From positions 16,183 to 80,182 of the IMG/VR virus record IMGVR_UViG_3300033149_006612: DNA of 64,000 nucleotides; one strand, 5' to 3'. The translations under genes and the position numbers were made by a program. Shown here in pieces: positions 14,162-30,308 of this stretch. The DNA comes from a virus. Every line of letters starts with the position of its first letter. Positions within the stretch are counted from its first letter, which is position 1. Below the pieces are notes generated by a model. That model ran no database searches and was not told the origin of the DNA. It saw only the letters and a list, made by a program, of their open reading frames with translations.

Positions 14162-16744
14162 ATGAAGTACTGTAAATCATGCCCCAGGGCGGATGACCCC
14201 CTGGTCAATCCGGTACCTGGATTCCATCTACAACCGTCCAGCCGGGAGACTGCCAGAGTTATGATAATTCTGGAGTCTCCCACCCATATCCAAGTCGAAC
14301 ACGGTGATCCCCTGATGGACCGGGACTCGATCGATGACCCGGAAGCCGTCGAGGATATAGGTGCCATAATAGTTCAGCTGGAACGATGGAAGATCGACCC
14401 CTCCGAGGTTTTCATCACCTACCTTCAACGCTGTAAACCGCCTAAGTTCTCAAAAATCCAGGCCACCGAGTGTTATAAAACCCACGTCATGCCCGAGATT
14501 GAAACGGTCCGACCGGAGATCCTGATGCTGATCGGGAACAACGTCCTGTATACCATAACGGGTAGTAGAGGGATCCTGGCCAAACACGGTACTGTAATCA
14601 GGGTCGAAGGCTCCGACACCGTCCTCCTGCCCTGTATAGCTCCGAGTTACGTCCGTGCCATGGACGGCAGGCGACGGGAGGATGCCCAGCGGATGTGGGT
14701 CCAGGCGTTCCAGAGGTTGGCCGGTCTCCTCTCCGGGAGCGACGACGATGTAAATCAGAACTATCATATAGTCACGGGTCGCGACCGATCCCAATTGAAA
14801 GAACTGGAACGATACCTACTCGATCATGACTTCCATATGTTCGACCTGGAAACCTGGCCGTTGAAGCCTTGGGCTGAAGGGGCTCAGATACTGACCGCCG
14901 CCTGGTCCGCCTTTGAAGGTGAAGGTTGGGCAGTGGCATATGATCATCCCGAGGCCACCTGGACCTCCAAGGACAGGCGGTGGCTTAAGGACATGATCAA
15001 GGCATGGGCATCGGACAGGGATAAATTAAAAGGCGCAGCCAACGCCAAGTTTGAAATCATCTGGGTTCGGGAGATCCTCGGGGTAGAGCTGGAATCGGTC
15101 GTCGTTGACCCGATCGTGCTGGACTATCTTGATGATGAGAATCGCGACCACGACGTCGGAGCTATGGCCTGGAGGTATACCGATCTCGGCGGATACGACG
15201 CCTGCATGCGGGACTTTCGATATAGGGGTAAGGACGGCAGGGAGCAGCCCGACTACAGGAGAGCCCCGCTCGATCTGCTGGCCCGATATAACGTCACCGA
15301 TACGGACGTCGAGATCCGATCCATGAATGTCTTGATAGACAGGCTGGATGCCACATTAAAGAGAGTTCACGATGAGATACTGATCCCGGTTGCCTACACC
15401 CTGGCTACGGTAGAGAAGAACGGCTGGACCGTGGACATAGATCAGGCAATCAAGATATATGAGAAGTATGATCAGAAGTTGAAGGATCTACATGAGGAGC
15501 TCCGGGAAGACCCGGTCTTCCGACAGTTCGAGGAGGACCAGGGTAAACCGTTCAACTTTGACTCCTTCCCGCAAAAGGTGAAGCTCTTTTTCGGATGGGA
15601 CCCGAAGAAACACAGGAAATTCGATGACGCACAGAACCGGTATTTCGATTTCCCGATCGACTTTAACTTCATGACTAAAGCCCGGCATCCGTCCACCGAT
15701 AAGAACTGGCGTGCCGCCAACAAACACCACCAATTCGTGTCCGTCTATGATAGGTACATGAAGGCCTGGGGGCTGATGAAAGGATTCCTTAAGCCTCTGC
15801 CGGACTACATCGACAACAAGGACCGGCGGATCCACACCGACTACAACGCCGCGAAGGTGGTCTCCGGGAGACTGTCCTCCACCAACCCCAACACGCAGAA
15901 CTTCCCCGATGATAAGGAATTCTGGAGCATATTTATCTCTCGGTGGGGAAAACGAGGTGGAAGGTTCGTTAAAGCCGACTATTCCCAGGTGGAACTCCGC
16001 GTATTGGCCTGGCTGTCCAACGATCAGCCGATGATCCAGACGTTCAAAAACGGGATAGACATCCACATCCAAACCACGAAGGAATTCTTGGTTATCTCCG
16101 ACGAACAGTGGAACGCCTGGGACGATAAAACCCGGCACTATAAGCGGCAATGGGGGAAGAGGATGAACTTTGCCGTGGCCAATGACCGTGGCGCACATCA
16201 CCTGGCCCTGGATCTCACCTCCCTTCAGAGGGAGGTATCCGGAGATTGGAGCCTGGTCGTTACGGATGAGGAGGCCCAGGAATATATCGATCGCTGGTAT
16301 GCCCCCCATGAAGCCATCCTCGCCTGGAAGGAGGCCGAAATCGCTAAAGCCAGGGAGGTCGGCTACGTTGAATCCCCTCAAGGTTACCGGCGACGGGCAC
16401 CGGACGTCAATAACAGGTATGACAGCCATAAACGACTGGCTGCCGAACGCACCCTGATCTCGTTCCTCATGCAGAGCACGGCCGGGGTGATTACGCTGAT
16501 CGCCAAAACCCGAATCCAAGAGCTGATCACGGAAGGAAACTTTAAATCCAAGATCTGTGGGAGTGTGTACGACAGCATCATCCTCGATATAAGGATGGAC
16601 GAACTGGACGTCCTGTGCAGTCAAATCCCCGACCTGATGCGCCAGGTCGGTGTTGACTACGGCTGCCCGGTTCCGCTGGCCGTGGATCTGGAGATAGGCG
16701 AAGACGGGGGGAGCCTGGTGGCATATGATGAGGTCCCGTTTTAA
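14162..16744 (+). CDS. DNA polymerase I (PolA family, DpoZ candidate) fused to a UDG-like domain
   Basis: 860 residues. Residues 1-190 match family-4 uracil-DNA glycosylase with all four Fe-S cysteines (C4, C7, C91, C104), but the catalytic Asn is Y87 and the HPS histidine is A160, so this domain is probably inactive. Exonuclease motifs are D228/E230, N294-E298 and Y376-D380. Polymerase motif A is DYSQVELR (D606). In motif B, R662, K666 and F670 are kept but the residue matching E. coli Y766 is N674. Motif C reads VYDS (D804) instead of VHDE. There is no 5'-3' exonuclease. With PurZ encoded downstream it is the likely replicase for Z-containing DNA. Confidence 0.9.
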   Translation: MKYCKSCPRADDPLVNPVPGFHLQPSSRETARVMIILESPTHIQVEHGDPLMDRDSIDDPEAVEDIGAIIVQLERWKIDPSEVFITYLQRCKPPKFSKIQATECYKTHVMPEIETVRPEILMLIGNNVLYTITGSRGILAKHGTVIRVEGSDTVLLPCIAPSYVRAMDGRRREDAQRMWVQAFQRLAGLLSGSDDDVNQNYHIVTGRDRSQLKELERYLLDHDFHMFDLETWPLKPWAEGAQILTAAWSAFEGEGWAVAYDHPEATWTSKDRRWLKDMIKAWASDRDKLKGAANAKFEIIWVREILGVELESVVVDPIVLDYLDDENRDHDVGAMAWRYTDLGGYDACMRDFRYRGKDGREQPDYRRAPLDLLARYNVTDTDVEIRSMNVLIDRLDATLKRVHDEILIPVAYTLATVEKNGWTVDIDQAIKIYEKYDQKLKDLHEELREDPVFRQFEEDQGKPFNFDSFPQKVKLFFGWDPKKHRKFDDAQNRYFDFPIDFNFMTKARHPSTDKNWRAANKHHQFVSVYDRYMKAWGLMKGFLKPLPDYIDNKDRRIHTDYNAAKVVSGRLSSTNPNTQNFPDDKEFWSIFISRWGKRGGRFVKADYSQVELRVLAWLSNDQPMIQTFKNGIDIHIQTTKEFLVISDEQWNAWDDKTRHYKRQWGKRMNFAVANDRGAHHLALDLTSLQREVSGDWSLVVTDEEAQEYIDRWYAPHEAILAWKEAEIAKAREVGYVESPQGYRRRAPDVNNRYDSHKRLAAERTLISFLMQSTAGVITLIAKTRIQELITEGNFKSKICGSVYDSIILDIRMDELDVLCSQIPDLMRQVGVDYGCPVPLAVDLEIGEDGGSLVAYDEVPF

Positions 16745-19001: not shown

Positions 19002-20117
19002 GTGAAGCGAGGAAAACTCAACGTGCTGATTGACGGACAGTGGGGCAGCACCGGAAAGGGGAAAATTGCTGCCTATCTCGCCAACAAGTTCCGGATCGAC
19101 CTGGCCATTTCGAACAACATGAGCAACGCCGGTCACACCTTCTACGTGGACGGCCGGAAGTATGTGGCCTTCCACGTCCCGGCTGCGGTAGCCCGGCCGG
19201 ACTGTGAAGTCCTGCTGGGTCCGACCACGGCCATCACGCTGGACCTGTTCGAGAAGGAATTGGACTGTATGGAACGGTTAAACGTTCGAAAGCGGATGAG
19301 CATCCATCCCCATGCAACAATCATCACCGAACGGCATCGGGAGATCGAGGCCGGGTCCGTTGAACGGATTTCGTCCACCGTCAAAGGCTGTGGAGCCGCC
19401 CTAGCCGAGAAGGTGTCCCGGAGTAAAAACGTCCGACTGGCCGGTGAAGTTAAGGAACTAAGGCCCTATATCGCCGATACGGTCGAGATACTGCATACCG
19501 CCTTGGAGAATGGAGCCATCTGTTTAGCGGAGGTAGCGCAGGGATTCGATCTATCGTTAAACCACGGCATGCAGTATCCGTTCGTCACCAGCCGGGACGT
19601 CACGGTCTGTTCCTGCCTCAATGATTGTGGTGTCCCGCCCGCTGCGTTAGGTGACGTTTACGCCTCCCTCCGCTGCCATCCCATCCGGGTAGGGAATGTG
19701 GTCAGGGAGGGGAAGACGGTAGGTTGGTCCGGTCCTCATTACCCCGATCAGGAGGAATTGAGCTGGGACACCGTCACCAGGCAGTCCGGGAGTGAGAAAC
19801 CGTTGATCGAGAGAACCACCGTTACCGATAAGGTTCGCCGGGTCTTCAGCTGGTCCGACATCCAGTACAACAAATTCGTCAAGATGTGCGATCCGGATTT
19901 TGTATTCCTGAACTTCATCAACTACCTTGACGCCGATTTGTACGGTGTCAGTTCAGATGATGAATCCGGAATGCAGAGAGTCCTGGACTCCGAAAAGGTC
20001 GTCGAATGGCTCGACCGCCATTCCAAAGGTAACCCTAACTGGGTACCGGTCGCATACGTCGGGACCGGGCCGGATGAACGTCACATGGTCGATATGGGAA
20101 TCGACGACATCCGCTGA
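19002..20117 (+). CDS. purZ: PurZ-type adenylosuccinate synthetase homologue (2-aminoadenine pathway)
   Basis: 371 residues, GTG start behind AAGGAG. It is a PurA-family enzyme shorter than bacterial PurA (about 430). The P-loop region reads GQWGSTGKGK at residues 12-21: S16 replaces the catalytic Asp of PurA (GDEGKGK), the hallmark of phage PurZ, which joins aspartate to dGMP to make the precursor of dZMP. The catalytic His motif NAGHT is kept, as is the GTT-like segment STVKGCGAALAEKV. It precedes the MazZ-like and dUTPase genes. The same operon supplies the PolA-family polymerase. PurZ rather than host-like PurA is strongly favoured. Confidence 0.9.
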   Translation: MKRGKLNVLIDGQWGSTGKGKIAAYLANKFRIDLAISNNMSNAGHTFYVDGRKYVAFHVPAAVARPDCEVLLGPTTAITLDLFEKELDCMERLNVRKRMSIHPHATIITERHREIEAGSVERISSTVKGCGAALAEKVSRSKNVRLAGEVKELRPYIADTVEILHTALENGAICLAEVAQGFDLSLNHGMQYPFVTSRDVTVCSCLNDCGVPPAALGDVYASLRCHPIRVGNVVREGKTVGWSGPHYPDQEELSWDTVTRQSGSEKPLIERTTVTDKVRRVFSWSDIQYNKFVKMCDPDFVFLNFINYLDADLYGVSSDDESGMQRVLDSEKVVEWLDRHSKGNPNWVPVAYVGTGPDERHMVDMGIDDIR

Positions 20118-25694: not shown

Positions 25695-25794
25695 GTGATT
25701 TTCGTCACATAACGGATGGACTCTAGCCGGGCAATAATGGTTCACCTTAAAAATCGAAATTTAAACTGAACCATACTTGGAGCCCATTTACTAC

Positions 25795-25824
25795 TTGACA
25801 AAACCTATCCATCTGTGGTATAAT
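25795..25824 (+). promoter_or_regulatory. Consensus sigma-70 promoter, rightward
   Basis: TTGACA at 25795-25800 and TATAAT at 25819-25824 are exact consensus hexamers with an 18-base spacer. The start site would be near 25832, just before GGAAAGGAG and an ATG. It should drive the ribozyme-containing operon at 25850-31867 with host RNA polymerase from the onset of infection. Confidence 0.9.
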
Positions 25825-25849
25825 AAAAAGTATGGAAAGGAGAAACACG

Positions 25850-25981
25850 ATGAACAAAGACCCACCGAGGACAATACAGCCCCTGTCGCAAGGCAAGCCA
25901 CAGGAATCCTACGCTCCCACGATGGAGACAGGCAGGGGGTCACGAAGAGGTCGAGCCAGTACGGGTCTGCCAGGACGCTAG
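25850..25981 (+). CDS. Small basic ORF, first in early operon
   Basis: 43 codons from ATG 25850 behind GGAAAGGAG with seven-base spacing, ending at TAG 25981. The peptide (MNKDPPRTIQPLSQ...) is proline, arginine and glycine rich and lacks hydrophobic runs. An overlapping frame is open to 26043 with an acidic end but has no usable start after the promoter, so the ribosome-site evidence favours this frame. Function unknown; a small host-takeover peptide is possible. Confidence 0.5.
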   Translation: MNKDPPRTIQPLSQGKPQESYAPTMETGRGSRRGRASTGLPGR

Positions 25982-26054
25982 AGGCCGAGGCAACGGATGA
26001 CGCCGAGCAGAGCCACCCGGAGAGCGATGAAGACCTCGATTGAACGTGAGCGAA

Positions 26055-26116: not shown

Positions 26117-26183
26117 GACCTGTCCGGACATACCGATTGAGTCCGCTGATGAGGATGGGGGTAGGGTCCCATCGAAACAGGTC
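26117..26183 (+). ncRNA. Hammerhead ribozyme, type III (HHR1)
   Basis: A full hammerhead core is present. Stem III: GACCUGU (26117-26123) pairs with ACAGGUC (26177-26183), seven perfect pairs. The cleavage triplet is GUC ending at C26124. Stem I: CGGAC (26125-26129) pairs with GUCCG (26141-26145) around an 11-base loop. CUGAUGA is at 26146-26152. Stem II: GAUGGG pairs with CCCAUC, then GAAA at 26174-26177. Loop I UACC can pair with loop II GGUA. The open ends are in stem III, hence type III. The ribosome site of the next gene follows at once. Confidence 0.85.
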
Positions 26184-26484: not shown

Positions 26485-26548
26485 GCCGAAACCAGCCGAA
26501 AGGCTGGTCTGCTGGAGATAACCTCCCAGCACTGATGATGGCAGGTTA
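26485..26548 (+). ncRNA. Hammerhead ribozyme, type II (HHR2)
   Basis: Order along the RNA: GCC (26485-26487), GAAA (26488-26491), stem III CCAGCC-GAAA-GGCUGG with a GNRA tetraloop, cleavage after C26509 in GUC, stem I UGCUGG/CCAGCA around a 10-base loop, CUGAUGA (26532-26538), then U and GGC (26540-26542), which pairs with the first GCC to form an open stem II. Loop I UAACCU (26519-26524) pairs with AGGUUA (26543-26548) as a pseudoknot. All core residues match the hammerhead consensus. Confidence 0.85.
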
Positions 26549-26568
26549 CCATCGAGGAGGTTTTTACC

Positions 26569-26841
26569 ATGGAATGCCCACTTTGCGGTTCCCGCGGTTC
26601 TCGTTTCCTTAAGCCCCATCCGAGCGTTTTCGGCGTTTACGAATGCCGAAAATGCCGAGCATTGTTCGGCGAATGCTACCTGGGAGATAGCTATTCGCTA
26701 GTGTCTCCCATGTGGTCCCGGCAGGACGTCGAGGATACCGAATGCCGGTACTTCGATTTCATCTGTGTGGGATCCGGTGGGATCACACGCAGGCATGGTT
26801 GGTTCAATCCGGCTGACGGTCGGATCGTTCAAACCGGTTGA
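26569..26841 (+). CDS. Small zinc-ribbon protein
   Basis: 90 residues, ATG 26569 behind GAGGAGG. The N-terminus has CPLCGSRGSRF and then YECRKCRALFGECY, giving two CxxC pairs 19 residues apart, as in a zinc ribbon. The remainder is polar with aromatic residues (YFDFICVGSGGITRRHGWF). It lies between ribozymes 2 and 3. It is probably a small nucleic-acid or protein-binding early protein; function unknown. Confidence 0.65.
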   Translation: MECPLCGSRGSRFLKPHPSVFGVYECRKCRALFGECYLGDSYSLVSPMWSRQDVEDTECRYFDFICVGSGGITRRHGWFNPADGRIVQTG

Positions 26842-26845
26842 GTAA

Positions 26846-26911
26846 GCCGAAACCGGCTAGAGATAGCCGGTCTAGCCGGGATGACCTCCGGCTACTGATG
26901 ATGGTAGGTCA
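26846..26911 (+). ncRNA. Hammerhead ribozyme, type II (HHR3)
   Basis: GCC (26846-26848), GAAA (26849-26852), stem III with ACCGGCU pairing AGCCGGU around a 6-base loop, cleavage after C26872, stem I UAGCCGG/CCGGCUA (7 bp) with an 8-base loop, CUGAUGA (26895-26901), then U and GGU (26903-26905) pairing with GCC (one G-U). Loop I UGACCU (26882-26887) pairs with AGGUCA (26906-26911). It starts four bases after the stop of the zinc-ribbon gene. Confidence 0.85.
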
Positions 26912-26946
26912 CTCTAACGTTAAAAGAAAATAAAAGGAGAAACACG

Positions 26947-27354
26947 ATGAACAACGAGGTAATCGAAATCCAAGTCGCTTGCACTGACAACATCACGGCT
27001 AAATGGGCCGTGATTAAACTGATGGTTAAGACGTCGGTCATCGACGTCTTAAGCAGATGCGATAACGGCGTCTACAAACCGCAGGTCAAGACCGGAGAGG
27101 AGATGTTCGCAATCCGTCCGGTAGTGGATGCGGTCGACATCGAGATGATCTGCCCCACCGGGGTGGTCAAGTGGGTCGCCAAACCCGGGGAGGAGATGTT
27201 CGCATTGGTCCGCCCGATAGTGGAGGCGATCGACATCGAGCTGGGTTGCCCCACCGGGCAGATCAAGTGGGTCGTCAAAACCGACGGGATCGTCTCCATC
27301 CACGCCGTCGATGACCAGGGAATGGAGACGGTATCAATCATCAACCTGTGCTGA
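26947..27354 (+). CDS. Internally repeated small early protein
   Basis: 135 residues, ATG behind AAAAGGAG. Two direct repeats of about 32 residues cover the centre: GEEMFAIRPVVDAVDIEMIC...PTGVVKWVAK and GEEMFALVRPIVEAIDIELGC...PTGQIKWVVK. A weaker third copy may lie at the N-terminus (ITAKWAVIKLMVKT). The repeats are beta-rich, suggesting a small repeat domain or Ig-like fold. It lies between ribozymes 3 and 4. No family recognised. Confidence 0.65.
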   Translation: MNNEVIEIQVACTDNITAKWAVIKLMVKTSVIDVLSRCDNGVYKPQVKTGEEMFAIRPVVDAVDIEMICPTGVVKWVAKPGEEMFALVRPIVEAIDIELGCPTGQIKWVVKTDGIVSIHAVDDQGMETVSIINLC

Positions 27355-27356
27355 CA

Positions 27357-27425
27357 GCCGAAATGCCGGGGGACCTCCCCCGGCATCTGCCGGAGATGAC
27401 CTCCCGGCACTGATGAGGCAGGTCA
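27357..27425 (+). ncRNA. Hammerhead ribozyme, type II (HHR4)
   Basis: GCC (27357-27359), GAAA (27360-27363), an 11-bp stem III including A27363-U27386 closed by the loop ACCU, cleavage after C27387 in AUC, stem I UGCCGG/CCGGCA with a 10-base loop, CUGAUGA (27410-27416), GGC (27417-27419) pairing with GCC. Loop I UGACCU (27397-27402) pairs with AGGUCA (27420-27425). Unlike copies 2 and 3 it has no extra base between CUGAUGA and stem II. It starts two bases after a stop codon. Confidence 0.85.
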
Positions 27426-27457: not shown

Positions 27458-27652
27458 ATGAAGGAAACGGGCATAGACGGAAACTGCCCCAGCTGGCCCG
27501 GTGCCAGCGAAGTTTACTCCAAGGCATACCGCTATATGGAGAAACATGGAGCAGACCACGCATTAATCAAAGCCCTGGAAAAGGGTAATGAAGAGGAGGT
27601 CAAAGCAAATATGCTCAGGATAAACACCGAATCGCTCCTGAGCATGGAATGA
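27458..27652 (+). CDS. Small early protein after ribozyme 4
   Basis: 64 residues, ATG behind AAAGGAG. The sequence (MKETGIDGNCPSWPGASEVY, then a helical YMEKHGADHALIKALEKGNE) is mainly helical with a charged end. No motif recognised. A strong stem-loop follows 35 bases after its stop, before the MoxR ATPase gene. Confidence 0.6.
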   Translation: MKETGIDGNCPSWPGASEVYSKAYRYMEKHGADHALIKALEKGNEEEVKANMLRINTESLLSME

Positions 27653-27687
27653 AAGCCAATTAATAATCGTGAATCTGTTACCTATTA

Positions 27688-27713
27688 GTGCGCCGGGGGT
27701 GCCCCCGGCGCAC
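27688..27713 (+). repeat. 12-bp GC stem-loop before MoxR gene
   Basis: GTGCGCCGGGGG and CCCCCGGCGCAC are perfect complements with only TG between, so at least 11 pairs form. No U tract follows, and the next gene's ribosome site is 20 bases away. It may be an mRNA stabiliser, a weak terminator or attenuator. It is not a hammerhead. Confidence 0.6.
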
Positions 27714-27742
27714 AGGAGAAACGCACACACAGGAGGAACACG

Positions 27743-28861
27743 ATGGACACCAGACAGAAAATTAAAAAGATATACACCACCCTTAACGATCAACTGGTAG
27801 AGAGGTCCGAAGTCCTACAAGGGTCGATAATAGCGATCCTTGCTCGGAAACACCTCTTCATGATCGGGCCTCCGGGTACGGCCAAATCACTCGGAATCGA
27901 GAAGTTCTGCGAGTCAATCTCCGGCATGACATACTTCGAGGAACTGATGACCCAGCAGACAAAGCCCGAGGACCTCTTCGGTCCGATCAAAGTCTCAGCG
28001 TATAGAGAAGATCGATATGAGCGGAACGTCGAAGGATTCCTACCGACTGCCGACATCGCCTTTCTCGACGAGATCTTTAAGGCCGGTGGACCAAATCTTA
28101 ATCCGCTGCTGAGGCTGACGGATGAAACGCGCAAATTCCGGAACGGCAAACCCCAGATGGAGCGATGTCCGCTGAACAGCCTGTTTGCCGCCAGTAATGA
28201 ATTCCCCGAGAACGCAGCCGAACTCAGCGCTCTTTGGGACCGGCTGCTACTCCGATATGTGGTGGACGACATCGTCGATGATTCCAACTTCGAAGCCATG
28301 ATGGCCTTGGAGGAAATCAAAATCGAGCACACCATCACCAAGGAGGAGCTCCGGCAAGCCCAGGAGGAGGTCGACCGGGTAAAGATCACACCAGAAATCA
28401 TCCATGTGCTGACCGAACTCCGCTCGAAGCTCCGGAAGGAAGGATATATATTTTCTCCCCGGAGATGGCGGGAGTCAAAGCAGGTCCTCAGGGCTCATGC
28501 CTGGTTCCACGGCCGGGACGAGGTCTCCGAGGATGATCTTGAAATCCTGGCCGCGGTCCTCTGGGACAGGCCCGAGCAACGGCGCGAGGTACTTCGCATC
28601 TTGATGTCCACCACCAATCCCGACACTGCCACAGCCCTAGCGTTGTTCGACGACATCCAAGAGATCATTGATGACATCGAAAAGCAGCCGGACGAATCGG
28701 CCAAACTCGCTGCCAGTCAGGAGGCCGTAGTCAAACTCCGGGATATGATCCCGCTGTTTGACAACTTCCGGCCCCACGCTAAGATTTTTGAATTAAAAAA
28801 TCAGGCCATAGAGATGCAACGTGCCGTCGTCCGGAGGTATTTCGGAATTAACATTAACTGA
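27743..28861 (+). CDS. MoxR-type AAA+ ATPase
   Basis: 372 residues, ATG behind AGGAGG. Walker A is GPPGTAKS at residues 42-49; Walker B is IAFLDEIFKAG; a sensor-1 region AASNEFPE and an arginine-finger helix follow. The C-terminal lid domain carries FSPRRWRESKQVL. MoxR ATPases act with VWA-domain partners, encoded here immediately downstream, as chaperone-like remodelling or metal-insertion systems. The phage role is unknown; early expression suggests action on host or replication proteins. Confidence 0.9.
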   Translation: MDTRQKIKKIYTTLNDQLVERSEVLQGSIIAILARKHLFMIGPPGTAKSLGIEKFCESISGMTYFEELMTQQTKPEDLFGPIKVSAYREDRYERNVEGFLPTADIAFLDEIFKAGGPNLNPLLRLTDETRKFRNGKPQMERCPLNSLFAASNEFPENAAELSALWDRLLLRYVVDDIVDDSNFEAMMALEEIKIEHTITKEELRQAQEEVDRVKITPEIIHVLTELRSKLRKEGYIFSPRRWRESKQVLRAHAWFHGRDEVSEDDLEILAAVLWDRPEQRREVLRILMSTTNPDTATALALFDDIQEIIDDIEKQPDESAKLAASQEAVVKLRDMIPLFDNFRPHAKIFELKNQAIEMQRAVVRRYFGININ

Positions 28862-28871
28862 GGAGGCAGTC

Positions 28872-30308
28872 ATGTTCGTAACCAATGTTGACGCATTCGA
28901 CCGGAGGACATTCGAGGACATCGCTCCCCGGTCCAGCAAGGTGGAGGACATCCGGTCCTCCGCCGAATATTCCGAATACGGAGACCTGCTAGAGGATCTC
29001 ATGGTTGACGGCTTCGGCTCCCTGTACAAATACGCCCCCCGGGTTCTGGAAGACGTCCCACCGGAACGGATTCTCTCCAAGCGGGTCATTGAACAGTGGC
29101 AACAGTTACCGGAATGGCAGCAGTTCCGGAAGTTCACCGTAGGTGACGAGATCGTCAGTATGGGAGCCGTAGACGCCGTGTACCGGGTGTTCAAGGAGAT
29201 GCCGGTCGAGGTTAAACGACGCCAACGGGAACTCCAGGACTTCTCGGATCGGCTGACCGAAATGTTGAATTCCGACGATACTGATTTTGGTAGTGACGAA
29301 TTCAAGGATGCGGTAACCGACATGGTCGAAGCCGGTAATAGGGTGGATCAAGCCCTGGATGCCGACGAGGACCGGATACGAAAATTGTGCCGGGTGGCAC
29401 TTCGAGAGGCCGCGGATGAGGCAGAGATCGAGGGAAAGGCAATGCTGGCACTCGGTTTTGATGACTCTACCGGGGAACTTAACGGTTCCCACAAGGACGA
29501 TCGAATCAAAATAGCCAGCATGCTGCAGAACAATCCCAAGCTTCGAGAAATCGTTAAACTCGCCGGTCGATTCTGCTATGTGGCGGATAAAAAGCAGCGG
29601 GAGAAATCCGAATACGCCCGGTCCCAGGTATCCGGTATTGAATTCGGAGACGACCTGCAGCGGGTAACCCCCTCCGATATGGCCCTCCTGTCCGATAAAG
29701 ACTTAGAGGAATTGTTCTGGCTGAAGTACATCGAATCAGGACTCCAGCTCTACAAGATCACCGGCACCGAGACCCTAGGTAAAGGACCCGTCGTGATAAT
29801 GGTCGACTGTTCCGGTAGTATGGCGGGTCAGAAGGATATATGGGCAAAAGCCATGGCCCTAGCGGGTTATTCCATAGCCCGGAAGCAAAACCGGGACTTC
29901 GCCTTTCTGTTATACAACACCGAGGTCAGGAAACAGATCTACCTTAAATCCGGCACCGGCAAACGGAACATGACCGGTCTGGCCGAGATTCTATCATCCG
30001 GCGTCGGCGGTGGTACCGATTTCGAAGTTCCCATCACATACGCCATGCGGGAGGTCCTAACCAGGTCCGAATTTACCAAGGCCGACATCATCTTCATCTC
30101 GGACGGTTACTACATGATCGGTGACGACTGGTTCCGGGATTATCAAACCCGAAAGGACGGTATGGAATTCGCGTTCTGGGGAATTCAAATCGGCCCCAGG
30201 CTGAGAGGTATGGACGCGTTGGATAGACTGAGCGACGACGTGGTTTACCTGGACGGTGACATCCTGGCCAATCAGGACCGGGCTTTTGACATGGCCTTTA
30301 CCATCTAA
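28872..30308 (+). CDS. VWA-domain partner of the MoxR ATPase
   Basis: 478 residues from ATG 28872 behind GAGGAGG; an upstream in-frame start would overlap the MoxR gene. The N-terminal 270 residues are helical and charged. The C-terminal von Willebrand A domain has the MIDAS motif DCSGS at about residues 311-315, a conserved threonine in GGGTDFE and an aspartate in FISDGYY. This is the usual MoxR-VWA gene pair. The VWA domain likely recognises the target that the ATPase remodels. Confidence 0.88.
   Translation: MFVTNVDAFDRRTFEDIAPRSSKVEDIRSSAEYSEYGDLLEDLMVDGFGSLYKYAPRVLEDVPPERILSKRVIEQWQQLPEWQQFRKFTVGDEIVSMGAVDAVYRVFKEMPVEVKRRQRELQDFSDRLTEMLNSDDTDFGSDEFKDAVTDMVEAGNRVDQALDADEDRIRKLCRVALREAADEAEIEGKAMLALGFDDSTGELNGSHKDDRIKIASMLQNNPKLREIVKLAGRFCYVADKKQREKSEYARSQVSGIEFGDDLQRVTPSDMALLSDKDLEELFWLKYIESGLQLYKITGTETLGKGPVVIMVDCSGSMAGQKDIWAKAMALAGYSIARKQNRDFAFLLYNTEVRKQIYLKSGTGKRNMTGLAEILSSGVGGGTDFEVPITYAMREVLTRSEFTKADIIFISDGYYMIGDDWFRDYQTRKDGMEFAFWGIQIGPRLRGMDALDRLSDDVVYLDGDILANQDRAFDMAFTI

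Follow-up and report, generated by a model that had tools for sequence, protein, structure and literature searches.

The window analysed here is a 64 kb stretch (64,000 nucleotides) of an 80,182-base IMG/VR virus record. It carries terminase, SbcCD-like, UvsX-like, DNA polymerase, DnaB-like, primase and tail genes and is therefore assigned to a tailed phage. Four hammerhead ribozyme motifs are located within 1.3 kb of this DNA, each 5' of one of four consecutive small genes (Table 1). The order along the array is promoter, short ORF, type III hammerhead, 95-aa ORF, type II hammerhead, 90-aa ORF, type II hammerhead, 135-aa ORF, type II hammerhead, 64-aa ORF and an 11-bp hairpin. None of the small ORFs could be assigned to a Pfam or PHROG family with confidence. 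The final hairpin has neither a T run nor a ribozyme core and possibly marks the 3' end of the array.

Table 1. Promoter, ribozymes, genes and terminal hairpin of the array (window positions)
Feature	Position	Strand	Remarks
sigma-70-type promoter TTGACA-18-TATAAT	25795..25824	+	12/12 consensus matches; points toward the array
type III hammerhead	26117..26183	+	RF00008 and descriptor; predicted cut after C26124
ORF, 95 aa	26196..26483	+	Shine-Dalgarno GGAGG ahead of ATG; without Pfam or PHROG match
type II hammerhead 1	26485..26548	+	RF02276 43.1 bits; predicted cut after C26509; pseudoknot 26519-26524 with 26543-26548, 6 bp
ORF, 90 aa	26569..26841	+	weak zinc-ribbon resemblance (PF12760, E 0.0017, below its cut-off)
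type II hammerhead 2	26846..26911	+	RF02276 46.5 bits; predicted cut after C26872; pseudoknot 26882-26887 with 26906-26911, 6 bp
ORF, 135 aa	26947..27354	+	no family above cut-off
type II hammerhead 3, triplet AUC	27357..27425	+	RF02276 44.0 bits; predicted cut after C27387; pseudoknot 27397-27402 with 27420-27425, 6 bp
ORF, 64 aa, last small gene of the array	27458..27652	+	ORF call; without confident family
11-bp GC-rich hairpin	27688..27713	+	z -2.97 for 27653-27742

Directly 3' of the array are genes for a MoxR-like AAA ATPase (bpMoxR) and then a VWA-domain protein (27743-30308, + strand). One viral contig with an identical ATPase gene contains the same three type II copies with the same scores, and the ribozyme locus has no DNA similarity to named phages. 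In the first gene past the promoter (25777-26043, + strand), the ATG at 25850 has a good Shine-Dalgarno sequence and opens a frame of just 43 aa (25850-25981). A second frame is open to 26043, with an acidic and protein-like end, and a frameshift or assembly error is possible. Elsewhere in the window, 19002-20117 (+ strand) matches a phage PurZ-like family (PHROG 1211, '2-aminooxy adenylosuccinate synthetase', E 2e-65), and a DNA polymerase gene is found at 14162-16744. By gene content, the two together make this phage a candidate for modified (2-aminoadenine) DNA.

Identity of the hammerheads and their pseudoknot

A structural descriptor combining the core (CUGANGA, GAAA and NUH) with minimum stem lengths finds exactly four matches on both strands of the 64 kb, three of type II and one of type III. 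Applied to 150 Markov-shuffled windows (9.6 Mb), the same descriptor finds no hammerhead of any type. The initial annotation had described the three type II copies, each with GCC-GAAA, a closed stem III, a cleavage triplet, a closed stem I, CUGAUGA and GGY, and the sequence check agrees with it on these elements, on the coordinates and on the placement of the three predicted cuts. Each copy has the CUGAUGA/GAAA/NUH core with three helices, of which stems I and III are closed and stem II, a GCC strand paired with a GGY strand, is open; the triplets are GUC, GUC and AUC in copies 1, 2 and 3. The covariance-model search that had been suggested as a check places all three above the gathering score of RF02276 (Hammerhead_II; 37), across the full model, with E-values of 2e-6 to 2e-5 in a search of the whole window.

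That annotation counted only three ribozymes and overlooked the type III copy. Its statement that every gap contains a ribozyme is correct for those preceding the 95-, 90-, 135- and 64-aa ORFs but not for the gap at 27653-27742, where just the 11-bp hairpin is found. The type III element has the core and the helices, with stem III open and stems III, I and II of 7, 5 and 6 bp by the descriptor, and all three stems form in its minimum-energy fold. It matches RF00008 (Hammerhead_3) end to end with 37.0 bits (E 4.4e-7 in a 121-base search) but stays below the curated cut-off of 48.5, as do other phage type III copies from our search for relatives.

Both Rfam families thus match over their full length, and the window copies differ from them in detail. 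An additional G is found at stem II of the type III copy. The pseudoknot sequence of the type II copies differs from that of RF02276, and in copies 1 and 2 an additional U stands between CUGAUGA and stem II; an extra base of this kind is also present in 30 of 395 viral type II relatives.

The pseudoknot between six bases of loop I and the 3' tail, as originally described, forms 6 bp in each copy. UAACCU/AGGUUA in copy 1 replaces UGACCU/AGGUCA in copies 2 and 3; what had been called a two-pair compensatory change is a single pair, A-U to G-C, brought about by two substitutions. Across the 395 relatives, a Watson-Crick run of at least 4 is observed in 80% of cognate loop I-tail pairs, versus 32% when the tails are swapped. 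These data support the assignment of the three predicted type II elements as hammerheads with a loop I/3' tail pseudoknot. Self-cleavage of the operon transcript is likely and would separate the ORFs. The sequence ACCUCC in loop I is also a possible anti-Shine-Dalgarno.

In 2011, Perreault et al. described clusters of type I, II and III hammerheads in phages and prophages, together with the type II pseudoknot, and proposed processing into single-gene mRNAs (PMC3088659). The window array resembles these clusters in its mixed-type hammerheads flanking single small genes and in the loop I/3' tail pseudoknot, and it belongs to a kind known since then. The initial annotation therefore stands as to identity, whereas it overrated the novelty of the array. 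Tandem arrays of bacterial or phage type cleave in vitro, and one from Agrobacterium cleaves in E. coli (PMC3088659). A 2017 review treats the purpose of bacterial and phage hammerheads as an open question (PMC6155905).

Position of the ribozymes relative to upstream genes

Relatives were fetched by sequence patterns, in scans of viral contigs followed by the descriptor, and number more than 500 over all types. They include 395 non-redundant type II hammerheads in 194 loci, in arrays of up to ten, of which 388 were usable for placement statistics. Two further scans raised the type III set to 114 copies (110 in the stop test), and 34 usable type I copies were obtained alongside. A scan of bacterial genomes with a strict pattern gave 17 loci, none of which passes the descriptor. 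In a hand-chosen set of mixed arrays, 10 of 11 start with a type III copy (P 5e-5); three begin at contig edges, and without these the count is 7 of 8 (P 0.009). A type III-first order is accordingly tentative.

A feature absent from the initial annotation is the position of the ribozymes relative to stop codons. With stops taken from ORFs of at least 50 codons rather than from curated genes, a stop codon is found within -3 to +8 nt of the start of stem II in 285 of the 388 type II copies (73%). The corresponding values are 3.3% at shifted positions, 8.1% for decoy G[CGT]CGAAA motifs and 5.0% on the antisense strand. The most frequent offset, -1, corresponds to a TAG stop that shares its G with the first position of stem II. 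The placement recurs in each stem II class, with 76/99 for GCC, the first class collected, and 114/148 for GTC and 68/100 for GGC, both fetched after the hypothesis had been formed. Where the gap leaves room, the ribozyme is closer to the stop in 130 cases and closer to the start in 54 (p 2e-8). In the window, copy 1 starts 1 nt past a TAA, copy 2 starts 4 nt past a TGA and copy 3 starts 2 nt past a TGA.

In the remaining 27% of type II copies no nearby stop was detected. The conserved A before stem II could be read as merely the last base of a stop codon; however, the base is also A in 61% of those copies for which no adjacent stop was detected, and therefore probably has a role of its own.

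Type III copies behave differently, with only 5 of 110 (5%) abutting a stop (Fisher 6e-42 versus type II). Cleavage of a type II hammerhead leaves the closed stem III on the upstream piece, whereas a type III cut leaves no hairpin there, and we therefore predicted a separate hairpin between the stop and the type III ribozyme. In agreement with this prediction, the stretch has a mean z of -3.9 over 79 loci and a z below -1.5 in 91% of them, compared with 17% in 248 control stretches (p 4e-30) and 14% in gaps that have no hammerhead. In 58 of 75 type III loci the added hairpin sits flush against stem III. Computed from the stop, the hairpin begins at a median of 7 nt in both types, with a mode of 5-6 for the added hairpin of type III. 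Among type III copies preceded by a gene, 58 of 85 have a flush hairpin of 6 bp or more, versus 3 of 25 among those that lack an upstream gene (Fisher 5e-7); the hairpin therefore goes with the end of an upstream gene and not with the ribozyme. The type III copy of the window itself lies 73 nt past the nearest likely stop, and its hairpins are not flush.

We also considered whether new 5' ends are protected alike, in which case type I, with its stem I open, should gain a 3' hairpin. A z below -1.5 3' of the ribozyme is found in 21% of type I versus 7% of type II copies (p 0.14), and the failure of this prediction limits our claim to 3' ends. A Shine-Dalgarno sequence hidden in stem III is not a general feature of type III, being found in only 2 of 111 copies. 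In these two (L109, 117-178, + strand; L113, 122-181, - strand), the 3' strand of stem III doubles as the Shine-Dalgarno sequence (GAGGAG), with an ATG 6 nt downstream. Their uncut form would hide the ribosome-binding site, which cutting could release.

Stop codons and terminators are not mentioned in PMC3088659, and stop placement and the type III hairpin are added here. We found neither in the literature searched, which covered few subscription journals, and an earlier report may exist.

A proposed model of mRNA 3'-end formation and its alternatives

The best explanation, in which we have moderate confidence, is that the ribozymes of the array form the 3' ends of upstream messages. The operon transcript would contain the type III ribozyme 5' of the 95-aa ORF, followed by a type II ribozyme in each of the next three gaps, and cleavage of the nascent transcript by each would yield short mRNAs, most of them with a single gene. 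Selection probably acts mainly on the 3' end of the upstream message. Past the stop codon, the upstream product of a type II cut is expected to retain about 6 nt and then the closed stem III hairpin, and to end about one base later in a 2',3'-cyclic phosphate. The upstream message would then end in a hairpin near the leading edge of the terminating ribosome, offering no single-stranded tail to 3' exonucleases. In this scheme a ribozyme would be for an internal gene what a terminator is for the last gene, but RNA polymerase would not be stopped. We infer that the transcripts are cut in infected cells and that the resulting 3' ends are protected from exonucleases.

On the wider proposal we are evenly divided. 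It holds that phage hammerheads are a general mRNA 3'-end device, placing a hairpin about 5-8 nt past the stop, formed by stem III in types I and II or, in type III, by a separate hairpin only if a gene ends just upstream. The placement rule points to the upstream 3' end as the end that seems to matter, and it makes sharp predictions.

Placement next to the stop could instead couple cleavage to translation, with a ribosome on the stop codon covering stem II and the GAA so that folding and cleavage wait for the end of translation. The stop does abut or overlap stem II in most type II copies. In type III, however, the core lies about 30 nt further on, yet the separate hairpin keeps the same stop offset; the hairpin, and not the core, therefore looks like the constrained feature, and we consider such coupling unlikely. 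To a similar degree we doubt that the cut serves to tune expression by uncoupling or destabilising the downstream gene through its 5'-OH end, setting protein ratios, with stop placement just saving space. Phage genomes are compact, and after cleavage of types II and III the new 5' end carries stem I, both of which fit tuning. Placement nevertheless follows the upstream stop and not the downstream start (130 versus 54 gaps, p 2e-8), and a compact genome gives no reason for the extra hairpin of type III.

Self-ligation of hammerheads occurs in circular RNAs. The piece between two type II cuts might fold back into a hammerhead that has the ORF for a loop, and ligate into a circular mRNA. Such an excised piece consists of the 3' half of one ribozyme and the 5' half of the next, and the stem II strands, all GCC/GGY, are interchangeable among the three window copies. 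Yet the first ribozyme in the window, being of type III, contributes no matching half, ribozymes often occur as single isolated copies, and circularisation leaves the type III hairpin unexplained. Spliced or circular products were also sought in 2011 and not detected (PMC3088659), which counts further against circular mRNAs, and we regard them as quite improbable. Least credible of all is that the motifs are inactive remnants or chance matches, an idea to which the extra U in copies 1 and 2, the extra G in type III, all at stem II, and an identity read from sequence lend some weight, against the Rfam E-values for the whole window, the intact cores, the one compensatory pseudoknot change and the absence of matches in shuffles.

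Type II arrays in cultured Streptomyces phages

Formation of 3' ends by hammerheads is open to testing, since one such array is carried by R4, a cultured phage of Streptomyces coelicolor A3(2). The Streptomyces phages R4 (NC_019414, L368), Celia (L367; also survey array L338), Omar (L369) and Daudau (L370) each carry an array of eight or nine type II hammerheads, nine in R4, that is missing from their annotation. RF02276 places 32 type II copies above its cut-off in these four stretches, and about 180 phage records match the regions by DNA similarity. As in the window, the type II copies are located in gaps between small genes. In contrast to the window, stem II is mostly GGC/GCC and the distance from the stop is less tightly kept, at 0-44 nt in most, and no type III copy was found in the four stretches. 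The literature searched yielded no papers tying hammerheads to Streptomyces phage genomes.

Of the 35 descriptor hits in the four cultured phages, 21 fall between annotated genes, and the other 14 run into an annotated gene at its 5' end only. For nine of those 14, a ribosome-binding site and start are found in frame a short way downstream, and the ribozymes thus flag likely wrong gene starts in cultured phages. Near the end of the Omar record, a segment (L369, 10634-10751, - strand) matches part of bacterial 16S rRNA (RF00177, 68 bits, model positions 106-311).
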